From assembly GCA_003171255.1 (NCBI GenBank), contig PMYK01000042.1, positions 1 to 51,580 of the forward strand: a stretch of 51,580 nt of DNA. Reading direction: 5' to 3'. The DNA is from Chloroflexota bacterium. GTDB taxonomy: Bacteria; Chloroflexota; Limnocylindria; Limnocylindrales; CSP1-4. Both the position numbers and the translations under genes were made by a program. The notes below the pieces were generated by a model. That model saw only the letters and a list, made by a program, of their open reading frames with translations. It had not been told where the DNA came from and ran no database searches. This document shows positions 7,523-14,279 of this stretch, piece by piece; within the stretch, counting starts at the first letter, position 1, and each line of letters begins with the position of its first letter.

Positions 7523-9487
7523 GTGACACTGGGGCAAGGCGCAGAGATTCCAACGTGCCAGTTCTGCGGCGCGAAGCTGATCTTTCGCGGGCAGACGAGC
7601 TGCCAGTCCTGCGGCAGGGAACTGACCGGGCGAGCCGTCGCGCCCGCGACCGGGACCGCCGCGGATTCTGTGGGGCCGAGCGCCGCGCCTGAGCGGACGC
7701 CCGCGCCCGAACCGCCTGCCGTTCCTTCGACCGCTGCCCCAACTCGGTTCTTCCAGTCGTTCGCCCTTCCGCCGGCGAGCCGGATGCCGTCGGCGACTGC
7801 GCTCAGCGACAGCTCCGCCCCCACGGCCTCCGAGGTCCCCGTGGTTCGGACTGTGACTCCTGCGGATGCGAGCGCCACCGCCACGGGCTCGCTCGCAGGC
7901 GAGGCGCCGCGCTCGACGATGGCCCAGCCCACTCCTGCCCAGCGCACTCCTGCCCAGCCCACTTTCACCCAGCCGGAGGCGGTCCAGCAAAGGGGCGCTC
8001 GCCGCTCGGGTGGTTCCGTTCGCAAGCCGCCGCAGTCGTGGGGATCGCCGCCGGCACGTCAATCCGCCGGCCCGAACACCGGCTCGCTCGGGCCCGGACG
8101 CGAAACCTCAGCTCGCCAGGCCCAGTGGAATGCGCAACGGGACTATTCGAACCGCAGGGGCGGAACCAGCTGGGGCGTCTGGCTCGTGGTCGGCGTCGCC
8201 GTGGTCATCGTGCTGACGGCAATCGGCGGCTTGAGCGGCGGCCAAACGATCAACTACGCTGGGGACACGCCATATGAGTTCGGCAACCCGGTCCCTGTCC
8301 GCCAGGTCACGCCCGAAGGAGCGTATGTCCCTGCCGTATTCCCGTCGACCGATCCTCTGGTCGCGGTCGGTGGGCTGACAAGAGCCCGAACCCATCACAC
8401 CGCGACCTTGCTGCCCGACGGCCGCGTGGTGGTTGTCGGCGGTATCTCGGTCGTCGGGGGCTCGTCAACTGCCCTGACCTTGATCGAGACCTACGATCCG
8501 ACGACGCGCTCATTCTCGAGGACGGGCGATCTGCTGACGGCTCGCTCGGATCACACCGCCACGCTCTTGCGGGACGGTACGGTTCTCATCGCAGGCGGCA
8601 AGACCAGCGACGGGACTGCCCTGGGCTCGGCCGAAGTCTACGATCCCAGGACGGGCGAGTCGCGGGCCACCGGCGCGCTGGCGTCGGCTACTTACTCGGC
8701 CTCCGCGGTGGCGCTCGACGACGGCAGCGTGTTTGTCGTCGGTGGCTACGGAGACAACGACATCTCCGTCGGGGCCGAGATATACGACCCGACCAGCGGG
8801 ACGTTTGGGCCCGTTGGGCCACCCAATGGCGAGGGCCTTGTGACCGCGGTCAAGCTCAACGACGGCCGCGTGCTGGTTTCCGGAGGCCTTTTGAGCGGCG
8901 AATCGCTCGACTCGGCCGAGGTCTTCGATCCGACGACCAAGCAGTTCGATAGCACCGGCTGGATGTCTGAGGCCCGCGCGGGCGCCACGTCCTGCCTGCT
9001 CGACGACGGCCGAGTCCTGGTTGTCGGCGGCGGCAACCTCTGGCAGGTGCCGAGCTCGACCGCGGAGATCTACGACCCGGCTGAAGGCGACTTCATCAAG
9101 GTGGCCCAGCTGGGCGACGTTCGTTCGCAAGGCACCGCAACCGTGCTCCCGGACGACTCCGTTCTCATGGTCGGGGGCGTCGATGGCACCGGCAGCCCGA
9201 TTGCGACGATCGAACGCTTCGACCCTGCAACGGGCGTCTCCACGCCGGTCGGCACAATGGCTGAGAGTCGGGCCGGCCAGACTGCCACCCGTCTGGCCGG
9301 CGGGTCCGTCCTGATCGTCGGCGGCTCGATCTCCACCACTGCGGTGACGGCCGATGCCGCGGTCTACGACCCGAGCGCGCCGCCGGTGGCTTCAGCCAGC
9401 CCGTCGCCCGACGCCAGCGCGGCCTCCAGCCCGTCGTCGATGCAGTCGGTCGTGCCCTCGTCGACCCCGCCGGCCAGCCCGTCGTAG
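7523..9487 (+). CDS. Membrane-anchored zinc-ribbon/kelch-repeat protein
   Basis: A 654-residue protein of unknown function built from four parts. Residues ~10-35 form a zinc ribbon (CQFCG...CQSCGREL). A long Pro/Ala/Ser-rich stretch follows, including short repeats of TPAQPT/TPAQRT encoded at ~7925-7965. One membrane helix is at ~215-237 (WGVWLVVGVAVVIVLTAIGG). The rest is about six kelch-type repeats, each with a D-G-R/S-V-L-V-x-G-G strand, an AEVYDP-type turn and a TG(x)M/L segment, ending in a Pro/Ser tail. Topology is probably zinc ribbon in the cytoplasm and propeller outside. The GTG start has GAGAGGTCGAGG upstream. It may sense or bind an extracellular ligand or polysaccharide; that is speculation. 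A terminator-like hairpin follows. Confidence 0.78.
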   Translation: MTLGQGAEIPTCQFCGAKLIFRGQTSCQSCGRELTGRAVAPATGTAADSVGPSAAPERTPAPEPPAVPSTAAPTRFFQSFALPPASRMPSATALSDSSAPTASEVPVVRTVTPADASATATGSLAGEAPRSTMAQPTPAQRTPAQPTFTQPEAVQQRGARRSGGSVRKPPQSWGSPPARQSAGPNTGSLGPGRETSARQAQWNAQRDYSNRRGGTSWGVWLVVGVAVVIVLTAIGGLSGGQTINYAGDTPYEFGNPVPVRQVTPEGAYVPAVFPSTDPLVAVGGLTRARTHHTATLLPDGRVVVVGGISVVGGSSTALTLIETYDPTTRSFSRTGDLLTARSDHTATLLRDGTVLIAGGKTSDGTALGSAEVYDPRTGESRATGALASATYSASAVALDDGSVFVVGGYGDNDISVGAEIYDPTSGTFGPVGPPNGEGLVTAVKLNDGRVLVSGGLLSGESLDSAEVFDPTTKQFDSTGWMSEARAGATSCLLDDGRVLVVGGGNLWQVPSSTAEIYDPAEGDFIKVAQLGDVRSQGTATVLPDDSVLMVGGVDGTGSPIATIERFDPATGVSTPVGTMAESRAGQTATRLAGGSVLIVGGSISTTAVTADAAVYDPSAPPVASASPSPDASAASSPSSMQSVVPSSTPPASPS

Positions 9488-9680: not shown

Positions 9681-11111
9681 ATGACCAGCCAGATCAGCCG
9701 GCGTCCCGCTGGCCCGAAGAAGCGCATCTCCCCCCGCGCCTTCATGGCGCTCGCCGCGGGTAAGGGCGCGGCCTGGGCGACCCGCCTGGTCGGCCGCGGC
9801 GGCGGCACCGCGATCACGGGCATGGTGGCCCGCAAGGTGGATCCGCACATCCTCGACGAGCTGGTGCGCATCCCCGGCGTGCCGGTTGTTGCGATCACGG
9901 GCAGCAACGGCAAGACCACCACGGCCCGTTTCACCGCGGCGCTGCTGCGCGGCGAGGGGATCACCGTCAGCCACAACTCCGCCGGCGCGAACCTCGTCCA
10001 GGGCGTCACGAGCCTCGCCGTCAGCCACGCGGACATGCGCGGGCGGCTCCCCGAGGGCGTGCTCGTGGCCGAGGTGGATGAAGGCGCGCTCCCGAAAGTG
10101 GCCCCGGAGACGCTGCCGCGGGCGCTCCTCATCACGGACCTCTTTCGCGACCAGCTGGACCGCTTCGGCGAGATATACGCCGTTGCCGACGCCATCGAGT
10201 CAGTGGCGGTGGCGCTGCCCGCCGACTCGGCCCTGATCGTGAACGCGGACGATCCGATGGTCGCGACCCTGGCCGAGAAGCGCGTCGGGCGGCGCGTGAC
10301 GTTCGGCCTCAGCATCAAGCGTTCGACCGACCAGATCACCCGCGCCGCCGATACGATCCGCTGCCCGCGCTGCAAGGCCGACCTCAAGTACCGCCACGTC
10401 TATCTCTCGCACATGGGCGACTACAGCTGCCCGGCCTGCGGCTTCGCCCGGCCCAAGCTGGACGTGGCTGTGACGGCGCTCGAGGTCCCGGGCCTCGATC
10501 GAACTCGGCTCGACGTCCAGACGCCGAGCGGCAAGCTCAGCCTGGACATACCGCAGTCGGGCGTGCACATCGCTTACGACGCCGCCGGCGCGATCGCCAT
10601 CATGGTCGGGCTCGGGATCTCGCTCGAGCATGCCGCCGCGTCGCTGGCTTCGGTTGGGCCGGCGTTCGGACGGCTCGAGAAGATCGACGCTGACGGCCGC
10701 ACGGTCATCCTCGCCTTCGCGAAGAACCCGACCTCGTACAACACCACGCTTCGGGCGCTCGCCACCGAAGGCGAGCCGCGGCAGCTCCTGATCGCCGCCT
10801 CGAACACGCTGGTGGACGGTGAAGACTTCGGCTGGCTCTGGGACGTCGACTTCGAATCGATGGCGCCGAAGGTCGAGCGCGTGATCGTCTCGGGCACACG
10901 GGCCGACGAGCTGGCCAACCGGCTCCACTACGCGGGCGTGCCGCGGGGCAGGCTGACGGTGGTCGAGGACCGGCCGCTGGCGTTGCGTGAGGCGCTCTCG
11001 CCGCTGCTGCCCGGGGCCAGGCTGGTCGTGCTGTCGGGCTACACGCCGCTGATCGAGCTGCGCAACGAAATGCGGCGGCTCGGCTGGACGGGGAGATACT
11101 GGGCCGTATGA
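9681..11111 (+). CDS. murT: Lipid II isoglutaminyl synthase, MurT subunit
   Basis: A 476-residue Mur-ligase-like protein. With GatD, MurT amidates the alpha-carboxyl of D-glutamate in lipid II, using glutamine-derived ammonia and ATP. Visible are the P-loop ITGSNGKTTT (~residues 72-81), the DLFRDQLDRFGE segment, and a zinc ribbon inserted in the central domain, CPRCKADL...YSCPACGF (~residues 228-256), which is a MurT hallmark absent from MurC-F. The C-terminal DUF1727-type part includes FAKNPTSYN and the DVDFE stretch. The ATG at 9681 is used; the open frame upstream is low-complexity antisense-like sequence. The stop overlaps the gatD start by four bases (ATGA), giving translational coupling. 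This implies a peptidoglycan wall with amidated D-iGln. Confidence 0.93.
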   Translation: MTSQISRRPAGPKKRISPRAFMALAAGKGAAWATRLVGRGGGTAITGMVARKVDPHILDELVRIPGVPVVAITGSNGKTTTARFTAALLRGEGITVSHNSAGANLVQGVTSLAVSHADMRGRLPEGVLVAEVDEGALPKVAPETLPRALLITDLFRDQLDRFGEIYAVADAIESVAVALPADSALIVNADDPMVATLAEKRVGRRVTFGLSIKRSTDQITRAADTIRCPRCKADLKYRHVYLSHMGDYSCPACGFARPKLDVAVTALEVPGLDRTRLDVQTPSGKLSLDIPQSGVHIAYDAAGAIAIMVGLGISLEHAAASLASVGPAFGRLEKIDADGRTVILAFAKNPTSYNTTLRALATEGEPRQLLIAASNTLVDGEDFGWLWDVDFESMAPKVERVIVSGTRADELANRLHYAGVPRGRLTVVEDRPLALREALSPLLPGARLVVLSGYTPLIELRNEMRRLGWTGRYWAV

Positions 11112-12262
11112 CCGAGCCACGCAAAGTCAAGCCGCCGGTCCCGCAGAAGCCCTCGCCAAAGACGGTGGCCGTCCGGCCGATCCCGACCGACTACCAGACC
11201 GATCCGGCCGATCCGTTCCCGCTGATCGCCCCGGCTCCGGCGCCGGCGCCCCGCGCCCGGGCGACCAGGGCCGCGAAGTCGGAGGATGCGATCGGGTCGG
11301 CCCCGAAGGCCGCCGTCGTCCCGAAGGTGGCGCCGACGCTCCAGTCGACCGCTTCGCCCGCCCAGTCGACCGCTTCGCCCGCCCAGTCGACCGCCCCGGC
11401 TCCTCCGGTGCCGCCGGCTGCCGCGCTGCATTCGCCTCGATCGAGTCATTCGCGCGACCACGAACCCCTTCGCATCGCCCACCTGTACCCGTCACTGCTG
11501 AACGTGGCCGGGGACGGCGGCAACCTGATCGCAATCCAGCGCCGGGCCCAGTGGCGGGGCATCCCCGTCGAGGTCGTGGCAATCGAGAAGGCCGAGACGC
11601 CGGACTTCCGCAAGTTCGACATCGTCCTTTTCCACGGTGGCCAGGACGTCGAGATGGCAGTCGCGGCCGAGGATTTCGCGCTCAAGGCGCCGTCGCTGCG
11701 GGCCGCTGTCGCCGACGGCGTGGTCGTGTTCGCCGTCTGCGCGGGGCTGCAGCTGCTCGGCCATCGCTACATCTCGAATGCGGGTGAGGAGATGCTCGGA
11801 GCCGGCATCCTGGATCTGGAGACCCGCGGCGGCCCGCAGCGCTTCATGCAGCACGCGGCCTGCGAAGTCACCATCGACGGCGCCACCGAGACGATCGTCG
11901 GATTCGAGAACCACTCCGGGCTGACGCAGCTGGGGCCGGGTTGCGAGACGTTCGGGCGGGTGATCGCAGGGGCGGGCAACAACGGCCGGGACGGCCTCGA
12001 AGGTGCGCGGTTCCGGAACGTCTTTGCCACCTACCTGCACGGCCCGTGTCTGCCGAAGAACCCGTGGCTGACCGACCAGCTCATCCGGATCGCCGTCGGC
12101 CGGGCCGAGGGTGTCCTGCCGGGCAAGGTGGCGCTCGCGCCGCTCAACGACGAACTCGAGGCCCGCGCCCATGAAGTGGCGCTTGCCAAGGCGATGGCCA
12201 ACCGTGGCAAGCGCACCGCACTGGAGCCGGCCAGGCTCGTACGAGGCCAGCAGAAGGGATAG
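11108..12262 (+). CDS. gatD: Lipid II isoglutaminyl synthase, GatD glutaminase subunit with a disordered N-terminal extension
   Basis: A 384-residue protein whose last ~265 residues are the class I glutamine amidotransferase GatD, which supplies ammonia to MurT. The core opens with LRIAHLYPSLLNVAGDGGN; the nucleophile is Cys211 (VFAVCAGLQLLG) and the catalytic His is His311 (TYLHGPCLPKNP). Known GatD proteins are about 240-270 residues, so the first ~118 residues are extra: a Pro/Ala-rich, basic, probably disordered segment. Part of it is a near-perfect 21-base tandem repeat (11341-11397) encoding AQSTASP units. The ATG overlaps the murT stop. A later internal start is conceivable, but no good ATG or GTG with a binding site exists just before the core. 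Confidence 0.92.
   Translation: MTEPRKVKPPVPQKPSPKTVAVRPIPTDYQTDPADPFPLIAPAPAPAPRARATRAAKSEDAIGSAPKAAVVPKVAPTLQSTASPAQSTASPAQSTAPAPPVPPAAALHSPRSSHSRDHEPLRIAHLYPSLLNVAGDGGNLIAIQRRAQWRGIPVEVVAIEKAETPDFRKFDIVLFHGGQDVEMAVAAEDFALKAPSLRAAVADGVVVFAVCAGLQLLGHRYISNAGEEMLGAGILDLETRGGPQRFMQHAACEVTIDGATETIVGFENHSGLTQLGPGCETFGRVIAGAGNNGRDGLEGARFRNVFATYLHGPCLPKNPWLTDQLIRIAVGRAEGVLPGKVALAPLNDELEARAHEVALAKAMANRGKRTALEPARLVRGQQKG
11341..11397 (+). repeat. 21-base tandem repeat inside gatD
   Basis: Two full copies (11341-11361 and 11362-11382) and a partial third copy of a 21-base unit starting CCAGTCGACCGC encode repeated QSTASPA units in the disordered N-terminal arm of GatD. In-frame length variation would change arm length without a frameshift. 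Confidence 0.85.
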
Positions 12263-12324
12263 CGTCTGTGGCTGCCGCGGAGTGACGCGGCGCCGCGATC
12301 AGCCTCGGCTGGTCAGCGGCTGGC

Positions 12325-12507
12325 ATGCTGACCGAGGACGAGCAGATCGTCCTGGGCCTTCGATTCGGGCGCGACATGACGATCCCGCAGATCGCCTTAC
12401 AGGCGGGTCTGCCCGAAGGCACGGTCAAATCGAGACTTCATTCCGCGCTGGAGCACATGCGAGCCGAGCTCGATGCCGAGCACCGAGCCGAGGAGCAGAG
12501 ACGATGA
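12325..12507 (+). CDS. Sigma-70 region 4-only protein (orphan domain)
   Basis: A 60-residue protein that is essentially one complete sigma-70/ECF region 4 helix-turn-helix: the opening helix TEDEQIVLGLRF, then IPQIALQAGLPEGTVKSRLHSALEHMR, matching the -35-recognition domain of ECF sigma factors. Region 2, which binds the -10 element and core polymerase, is missing, and only 62 bases separate the gatD stop from the ATG; the frame is closed by a stop at 12283-12285. It is therefore either a remnant or a stand-alone domain. Its stop overlaps the start of the next gene (ATGA), the arrangement typical of ECF sigma/anti-sigma pairs. Intact reading frame and coupling argue for some function. It could modulate another sigma factor. 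Confidence 0.7.
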   Translation: MLTEDEQIVLGLRFGRDMTIPQIALQAGLPEGTVKSRLHSALEHMRAELDAEHRAEEQRR

Positions 12508-14279
12508 GCGATCCCAATCTGGAGCCCAAGCTGCGGCCCTACCACCGGCGGTTCGAGCCGGACAATTCCACGCGGCTGGCGCTGGCGGCACGAGAGAAGC
12601 TCGACGAGGCACGGCAGCCGCGGCCGGGACGTTCGCTGTGGGCCACGCTGCGGCTCGTTGCGACCCTCGTGGGGGCGATCATCATCGTGGCAGTGCTGCT
12701 TGAGGGCCGTTTCGGCGCCGATCAGGGCACCGTCCCCGGCGGCGGCACGGGCTCGCCCGGCCCCACGTTCAACCTGCCGGCCGCCCTCGACGCGCGGGTC
12801 GACCAGGCCGGGCTGATGCGAACGAGCGGCATCTGGGCGGTTCAGGGCTCCTATCTGCTCACCTCGACCGACAACGGGGCAACGTGGCGGGCGGGTACGT
12901 TCCCGGCCCTGACCTTCACGGGCGGCGGTCTGGCCGGGCCGGCGGCAGTGTTCGTCCTCGATCCGGACCACGCCTGGTCCATCGCCCACCGGGACGTCGG
13001 CGGCGCAACGGAGCCCAGTCCCACGCCCGCAGGGCAGCTGTTCGTCGTCGATCGAACTGCCGATGGCGGCACGTCCTGGCAGTCGACGCCGGTGTCGGGC
13101 GACTTCCGCTGCGACACGGCCACGATTGCGTTCGCGGACACCAGCCACGGCTTCATCATGTGTGCCTATCCCGCGGACGTGGCCGCGGGGGTGGCGGGCC
13201 CCTACGGCGCGGTCCTGCGGACCGACGATGGCGGCGCGACGTGGTCGGTAGTGAGTGACGCGACAGGCCTTGGCTCGCAGTTCACCGCGAGCGACGCGAC
13301 CACCCTCTGGTCGGCGCCCGACTCGAACTCCCCGGTCCTGAAGGGCGTGGCTCTGTTCGTGAGTCGAGATGCGGGCCGGATATGGGCGCCGGTCGATTTG
13401 CCCGAGCTGTCGTCCGTGCCTGTGGGCGCCAAGGTCCGCGTCGAGGCAGGACCGCTGTTCTCGGACGCGTCGAACGGCGCGATCGCGGTCGGTGTCTTCG
13501 TCAACGGCGCAGGAGGCGAAGACGCCGTCTGGTTCTATCGAACTTCCGATGCCGGCCGATCGTGGGCCGTCGTCAAGAAGGCGATCGACTTCCCGATGAT
13601 CGACTTCCCGCCGGCCTCCGCGGTCGGTCAGGTGTGGGCAGCCAGGATGTTGGGCAACTACAAGTGGACGGTGAGCGGCGACTTCGGCGCGAGCTGGACG
13701 GAGGTTTCGGGGTCCGGGCTGCCGCCCAACACGCAATTCCTGTGGTTCGATTTCGCCGACGCGAGCCACGGCGTCGGCACTGTCTTCGCCGCCCCAGGCA
13801 GCAACGCCTTGATGCTCTCGTCGGACGGCGGCCAGACGTGGCACGCGGCCGACTTCGGCGACGCGCGGGCGAAGGTACCGTCCGACCCATCGCAGGATCC
13901 TGCCGCGGCGACGAAGACCGTCAACGACTTCGAGGAGGCGGCCTACAAGGCGAGCCCGGCGATGGCGTGGAACATGCTCGCGTCCTACTCGCAGCGGGCA
14001 TTCGGTAGCGAACCGGCCTTCGAGACCGCGACGGCCGCTCTGCGCAAACGGACCAACTACTCGTACCAGGTCGGCGAGGCGACGCACGACGCCACCATCC
14101 GCGACCGGCTGAACCTCACACCGGGCGTCTGGGACGACCTGACCGCGTTCGCGGACCTGACCCGCGCCTACATCGTGGTCGTGACCTACCCCGGCACGTC
14201 CGAGCTGCCGGAGACCCTCGTCGTTGCGCCGCTCACGGTCACGGGCGACTGGCGCATCTGGGTCGTGACGATGCCGTAA
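12504..14279 (+). CDS. Membrane protein with outside BNR/YCF48-like repeats
   Basis: A 591-residue single-pass protein. About 45 charged cytoplasmic residues (KLRPYHRRFEPDNSTRLALA...) precede a membrane helix near 48-68 (WATLRLVATLVGAIIIVAVL). The exported part holds six or seven BNR/Asp-box-type repeats of the form [ST]-x-D-x-G-x-x-W, for example STDNGATW, TADGGTSW, RTDDGGATW, SRDAGRIW, TSDAGRSW and SSDGGQTW, as in sialidase-like and YCF48-like propellers. A final ~110-residue domain after the propeller resembles a small helical ligand-binding or stress domain. Its start overlaps the stop of the sigma region 4 gene, so its position matches that of an anti-sigma factor, but I see no recognised anti-sigma domain in the short N-terminus. 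Function unknown. Confidence 0.75.
   Translation: MSDPNLEPKLRPYHRRFEPDNSTRLALAAREKLDEARQPRPGRSLWATLRLVATLVGAIIIVAVLLEGRFGADQGTVPGGGTGSPGPTFNLPAALDARVDQAGLMRTSGIWAVQGSYLLTSTDNGATWRAGTFPALTFTGGGLAGPAAVFVLDPDHAWSIAHRDVGGATEPSPTPAGQLFVVDRTADGGTSWQSTPVSGDFRCDTATIAFADTSHGFIMCAYPADVAAGVAGPYGAVLRTDDGGATWSVVSDATGLGSQFTASDATTLWSAPDSNSPVLKGVALFVSRDAGRIWAPVDLPELSSVPVGAKVRVEAGPLFSDASNGAIAVGVFVNGAGGEDAVWFYRTSDAGRSWAVVKKAIDFPMIDFPPASAVGQVWAARMLGNYKWTVSGDFGASWTEVSGSGLPPNTQFLWFDFADASHGVGTVFAAPGSNALMLSSDGGQTWHAADFGDARAKVPSDPSQDPAAATKTVNDFEEAAYKASPAMAWNMLASYSQRAFGSEPAFETATAALRKRTNYSYQVGEATHDATIRDRLNLTPGVWDDLTAFADLTRAYIVVVTYPGTSELPETLVVAPLTVTGDWRIWVVTMP

Follow-up and report, generated by a model that had tools for sequence, protein, structure and literature searches.

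A sigma region 4 remnant overlapping the gene of a membrane BNR-repeat protein in a Chloroflexota genome

In the window analysed here (the whole 51,580-nucleotide stretch of contig PMYK01000042.1), a 60-aa protein made up of sigma-70 region 4 only is encoded directly before a membrane BNR-repeat protein. Such an arrangement can be read in two ways, either as the remains of an ECF operon whose sensor survived or as a region 4-only modulator tied to an outside sensor, and the first-pass annotation had proposed both. Comparison with related genomes indicates that the region 4 protein is very probably the stump of a normal ECF sigma factor, left in a degenerate ECF sigma/anti-sigma operon whose membrane partner is intact.

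The region 4 remnant and its membrane-bound neighbour

The remnant lies on the forward strand at 12325..12507 and corresponds to an ECF sigma factor reduced to region 4 and the C-terminal tail, with a 59-residue match to full-length ECFs in relatives. Pfam analysis revealed a Sigma70_r4 match (PF04545, E 2.5e-12, 46.6 bits vs. a cut-off of 24.1) and a second match to Sigma70_r4_2 (PF08281, E 1.3e-8), and no other sigma-factor domain in the ORF. Upstream in the same frame only 13 codons precede a stop, with no region 2 among them, and the open frame including these codons amounts to 73 aa. The ATG at 12325 is separated by 62 nt from the end of gatD (12262), and no Shine-Dalgarno-like sequence could be read before it. 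At the other end, the TGA of the remnant overlaps the ATG of the BNR protein at 12504 (ATGA). The short region 4-only protein, the missing region 2, the overlap and the gap of about 60 bases after gatD, all described in the first-pass annotation, were confirmed by these data.

The region 4 ORF is not a chance frame, as 97% of its 59 region 4 residues are the same in the nearest relative (L051, a Chloroflexi metagenome genome, PLNK01000113.1), with 5 nucleotide differences in 177 nt. These amount to two amino-acid differences and no decay is visible, so either little time has passed since the deletion or some constraint acts on the fragment. The window copy, with region 4 only, lacks the combination of sigma2 and sigma4 domains, connected through a short linker, that characterises ECF sigma factors. 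Region 4 by itself can neither form a holoenzyme nor open a promoter; the sigma factor therefore appears to have been lost, and the stump is most likely inactive as such.

Region 4 could still serve in transcription if region 2 were provided by a separate protein. A precedent exists in SigO-RsoA of Bacillus subtilis, where sigma4 and sigma2 are carried on separate proteins (PMC8103513), and the window resembles this system in having sigma4 as a separate small protein. However, no separate sigma2 protein was found in the window genome (91% complete): all 23 region 2 matches lie in frames of at least 183 aa, every ECF-size match also has a region 4 match at the same place, and no region 2-only frame is present. 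A split sigma factor is thus extremely unlikely.

The BNR ORF (12504..14279, forward strand) is intact and encodes a single-pass membrane protein of 591 aa, probably a former anti-sigma factor. Its first 45 residues (12504..12638) form a cytoplasmic anti-sigma-like segment, followed by a transmembrane helix at residues 46-67 (12639..12704), which is seen as a hydrophobic stretch and as a helix in the predicted model. The outer part consists of a BNR/Asp-box beta-propeller at approximately residues 100-455 (12801..13868), with matches to PF02012, BNR_2 and PSII_BNR and a corresponding strand pattern in the model, and of a C-terminal alpha/beta domain at residues 456-591 (13869..14276) without Pfam match. 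The structure prediction, made from three aligned sequences, is of low confidence (mean pLDDT 40, pTM 0.31). Within these bounds, the Pfam matches and the predicted helix agree with the earlier description of a single-pass protein carrying a BNR propeller and a C-terminal domain outside. A weak match to Ycf48-like BNR propellers covers one repeat stretch and reflects repeat-level resemblance only; unlike those proteins, the window protein has an N-terminal membrane helix and an extra C-terminal domain. The latter domain occurs also without the propeller in two loci (L038 in G044 and L043 in G052), where it belongs to small proteins that have a hydrophobic stretch at the N-terminus; it is therefore taken as a domain in its own right, for which Pfam has no name.

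Full-length orthologues and the extent of the deletion

Related loci were collected with the BNR protein as query against 100 related genomes and a species collection, and come mainly from the same genus. In 16 loci the region 4 stretch sits in an open frame that could accommodate a whole ECF sigma factor; wherever the start could be located, 114-126 residues precede region 4. In 15 of these loci the frame still overlaps the membrane protein gene by ATGA. The order of a sigma gene followed by an overlapping gene for its membrane partner, which the first-pass annotation had named as typical of ECF systems, is therefore present in the relatives. In the L051 orthologue, Sigma70_r2 spans residues 23-86 (E 1e-12) and Sigma70_r4 residues 115-163 (E 2.8e-12), both above the Pfam cut-offs, with a linker of fewer than 50 residues as in ECF sigma factors; among solved structures its best matches are ECF proteins, e.g., SigL of M. 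tuberculosis. When the 60-aa sequence was used as query against 60 genomes, the closest orthologues (78-97% identity) were found in frames of at least 176 aa in 11 of 11 cases vs. 73 aa in the window.

Many genomes of the genus thus have, between gatD and the ATGA overlap, a full-length ECF sigma factor that includes both region 2 and region 4, and the region 4-only form was found in no genome but that of the window. Relatives with the full-length protein, disruption of the window copy and lack of conservation of the short form, the three signs of decay that the earlier annotation had named, were all seen, and its reading as a decayed ECF operon with a surviving sensor is upheld. Compared with ECF sigma factors (sigma-70 group 4), such as M. 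tuberculosis SigL and R. sphaeroides SigE, the intact relatives have both regions, an AAC/CGT-type promoter before their own gene and an overlapping gene for a membrane partner, whereas the window copy is without region 2, start codon and promoter.

Two further short sigma matches, of lower identity, were rejected as region 4-only genes: in G018:C63 the contig end cuts the frame, and G009:C166 resembles an ECF copy with a frameshift or an internal loss of sequence. The latter (G009:C166:2712-2864, L064) is a different ECF gene, apparently damaged between regions 2 and 4, and is possibly another decaying sigma factor.

Blastn and global alignment placed the deletion junction at 12263..12327 (forward strand), where the window has 65 nt and L051 has 591 nt containing the ECF promoter, the sigma start, region 2 and the linker. 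The murT-gatD part aligns with L051 to the end of gatD, and the alignment restarts at 12328, the start of region 4. The net loss relative to L051 is approximately 526 bp, covering 118 codons of the sigma gene and about 172 nt that lie before it. Among 14 full-length loci examined, 10 carry a promoter-like motif, GAACG-16/17 nt-CGTA, before the sigma start (L023, L024, L025, L026, L027, L030, L033, L041, L042 and L051); in the more distant G012, G007, G003 and G018 the first half is related, but the spacing differs or the second half is less clear. The motif is absent from the window upstream of the remnant. Promoters of the AAC/CGT type have been described for autoregulated ECF operons (PMC8103513); the window copy has none of its own, the motif being found in the relatives only. 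A strict-motif scan of 21 genomes matched the sigma promoter in four and few other sites, and gave no match in the window genome. As so few other sites were found, the regulon of the motif may consist mostly of the operon itself.

Could the missing stretch have been dropped by the assembler, so that the true genome has the full-length ECF gene? The window belongs to an apparent metagenome assembly, which is incomplete and in 55 contigs, and synonymous divergence from L051 changes sharply at the junction (0.55 in gatD, 0.07 in region 4; 0.38 in murT), as a two-strain chimera could give. Against this, synteny holds on both flanks, the alignment contains no repeat at the junction, and the lost region 2 is nowhere else in the assembly. 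The 65-nt spacer has a distinct sequence of its own, for which a source was looked for and none found. Similar jumps occur also inside the BNR gene, where synonymous divergence is about 0.15 over the first 200 residues, rises to 0.75 in the middle part and falls to 0.16 for the end, suggesting recombination between lineages. We consequently regard an assembly artefact as improbable.

A Fisher test with sites treated as independent separates the low-divergence part from gatD (p ~2e-12). The mosaic along 12328-14178 vs. L051 suggests that the locus was exchanged or recombined between species-level lineages, including within the propeller gene. The deletion junction falls on one edge of the low-divergence part, and it is speculation that the exchange produced the deletion.

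For the decayed ECF operon, the following course can be proposed. The ancestor would have had the order gatD, ECF promoter, a sigma factor of about 177 aa and, overlapping it by ATGA, a membrane protein composed of a short anti-sigma segment in the cytoplasm, a single transmembrane helix and an outer BNR propeller. The deletion would then have taken out promoter, start codon, region 2 and linker, and left region 4. The stump would persist since the deletion ended there and since its 3′ end holds also the ribosome site of the BNR gene, a Shine-Dalgarno-like GAGGAG (12490..12495, forward strand) 8 nt before the BNR ATG. The BNR protein is probably now made through this site by read-through from murT-gatD, and was most likely retained for its outer function.

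The N-terminal segment and the putative anti-sigma role

Alignment of the sigma-linked membrane proteins revealed a common 45-residue N-terminus before the transmembrane helix, with the pattern LE..LR..Y. The segment has no conserved zinc ligands in this alignment and is without a Pfam match. It occurs alongside the sigma factor, and three sigma-less, gatD-linked BNR copies lack it; an exception is G056, where an anti-sigma-like N-terminus occurs in a broken frame without adjacent sigma factor. As in ECF/anti-sigma operons, the two genes are adjacent, co-oriented and overlapping (ATGA) in the window and in relatives. Judged from gene order and from the co-occurrence of the N-terminus with the sigma factor, the putative role of the BNR protein as anti-sigma partner has good support, although the predicted model is too poor to bear on the fold of the segment. 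Of the earlier proposal of such a partner, the gene order stood and was joined by an N-terminus that travels with the sigma factor, and the binding role is to be taken as putative.

Known anti-sigma domains touch region 4 via their first helix. The window protein is similar to class II CnrY and class III RsbN in its short cytoplasmic N-terminus free of a zinc motif, its single transmembrane helix and its overlapping gene after the ECF gene. It differs from them in its outer part, here a BNR propeller plus alpha/beta domain or, in some relatives, PepSY, and in an N-terminus without Pfam anti-sigma match, so that the class is likened by length only and is a guess. Across the relatives the outer part consists of BNR plus the C-terminal domain, BNR alone, or PepSY (G001, G017). 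In the PepSY-type loci (L042 in G001, L041 in G017) the same ECF sigma factor and anti-sigma-like N-terminus are present, and the sensor part therefore looks exchangeable. The intact family, with one ECF type, a short anti-sigma-like N-terminus and exchangeable outer parts (BNR or PepSY), is a more interesting object than the stump. Our literature search found no ECF sigma factor with a BNR partner; for beta-propeller partners it gave a single paper, on Leptospira.

The anti-sigma-like segment is also where the second reading of the first-pass annotation, a region 4-only modulator tied to an outside sensor, has to be weighed. By this reading the fragment is a functional modulator or decoy which binds the N-terminal segment of the BNR protein, thereby releasing or adjusting a different sigma factor. 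In its favour, the frame is intact, region 4 is little changed and neither the ATGA overlap nor the N-terminal segment has been lost; contact with sigma4 is common to the anti-sigma domains of classes I-III (PMC7406223). Yet the short form occurs in no other genome, no ribosome site is recognisable before the stump ATG, the promoter is gone, and the sigma factor and the N-terminal segment have been lost together in three relatives. The segment itself is altered in the window at an otherwise conserved Tyr: Tyr14 is replaced by His, whereas 15 of the 16 other aligned sequences have Tyr and the most distant one (L040) has Phe. In total, the window segment has three residue changes vs. none in L051, at sites that are all identical in six outgroups. 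This 3:0 split between lineages is not significant alone, and the changes hint at relaxed constraint.

Taken together, a modulator or decoy role is quite unlikely, and the proposal of the annotation is not supported. In its specific form, with the stump kept as a small protein that occupies the anti-sigma segment and relieves or tunes another ECF of the same genome, we consider it highly improbable; if true, a sigma/anti-sigma switch would have turned into a decoy. An assembly error or a decoy role could also explain the data, but each is less likely than a decayed ECF operon. With the stump read as the product of such decay, a tempting but wrong candidate for a region 4-only regulator is removed.

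gatD-linked loci and stages of loss in the genus

The upstream neighbour gatD (GATase_3; 11108..12262, forward strand; Pfam E 1.5e-32) is syntenic and is the probable source of transcription after the deletion. The identities of murT and gatD were confirmed, and in most relatives, too, the sigma/BNR locus is preceded by gatD. The sigma factor and its membrane partner are complete after gatD in 10 genomes (G001, G003, G004, G007, G009, G011, G012, G014, G017 and G018), and extra complete copies away from any detected gatD are present in G010, G013, G019 and G020. In G006 and G008 the BNR protein follows gatD directly, without sigma factor and without the N-terminal segment. Both are missing also from G013:C83, where an OsmC-like gene lies between gatD and the BNR protein. 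Within the stretch examined downstream of gatD, neither sigma factor nor BNR protein was found in G015, G016 and G010:C38, and G002 was uninformative due to a contig end. Region 4 without region 2 was found in the window only. In G006, the -35 half of the promoter remains before the shortened BNR gene, with CGCA vs. CGTA elsewhere.

Stages in the dismantling of an ECF operon can thus be seen within one genus: complete in most genomes, with the sigma factor truncated but its partner intact in the window, and with the sigma factor and anti-sigma segment gone but the propeller retained in three genomes. As the outer protein outlasts the sigma factor, it is suggested to have a job beyond holding it.

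Tandem pairs of complete sigma/BNR modules, of diverged subtypes, were noted in three loci: L066 (G010:C87), L067 (G020:C39) and L068 (G003:C30). The window also encodes, at 7523-9487 upstream of murT, another large membrane protein, whose N-terminus is rich in Cys and whose outer repeats look Kelch-like by eye, so that two propeller-like membrane proteins flank murT-gatD.
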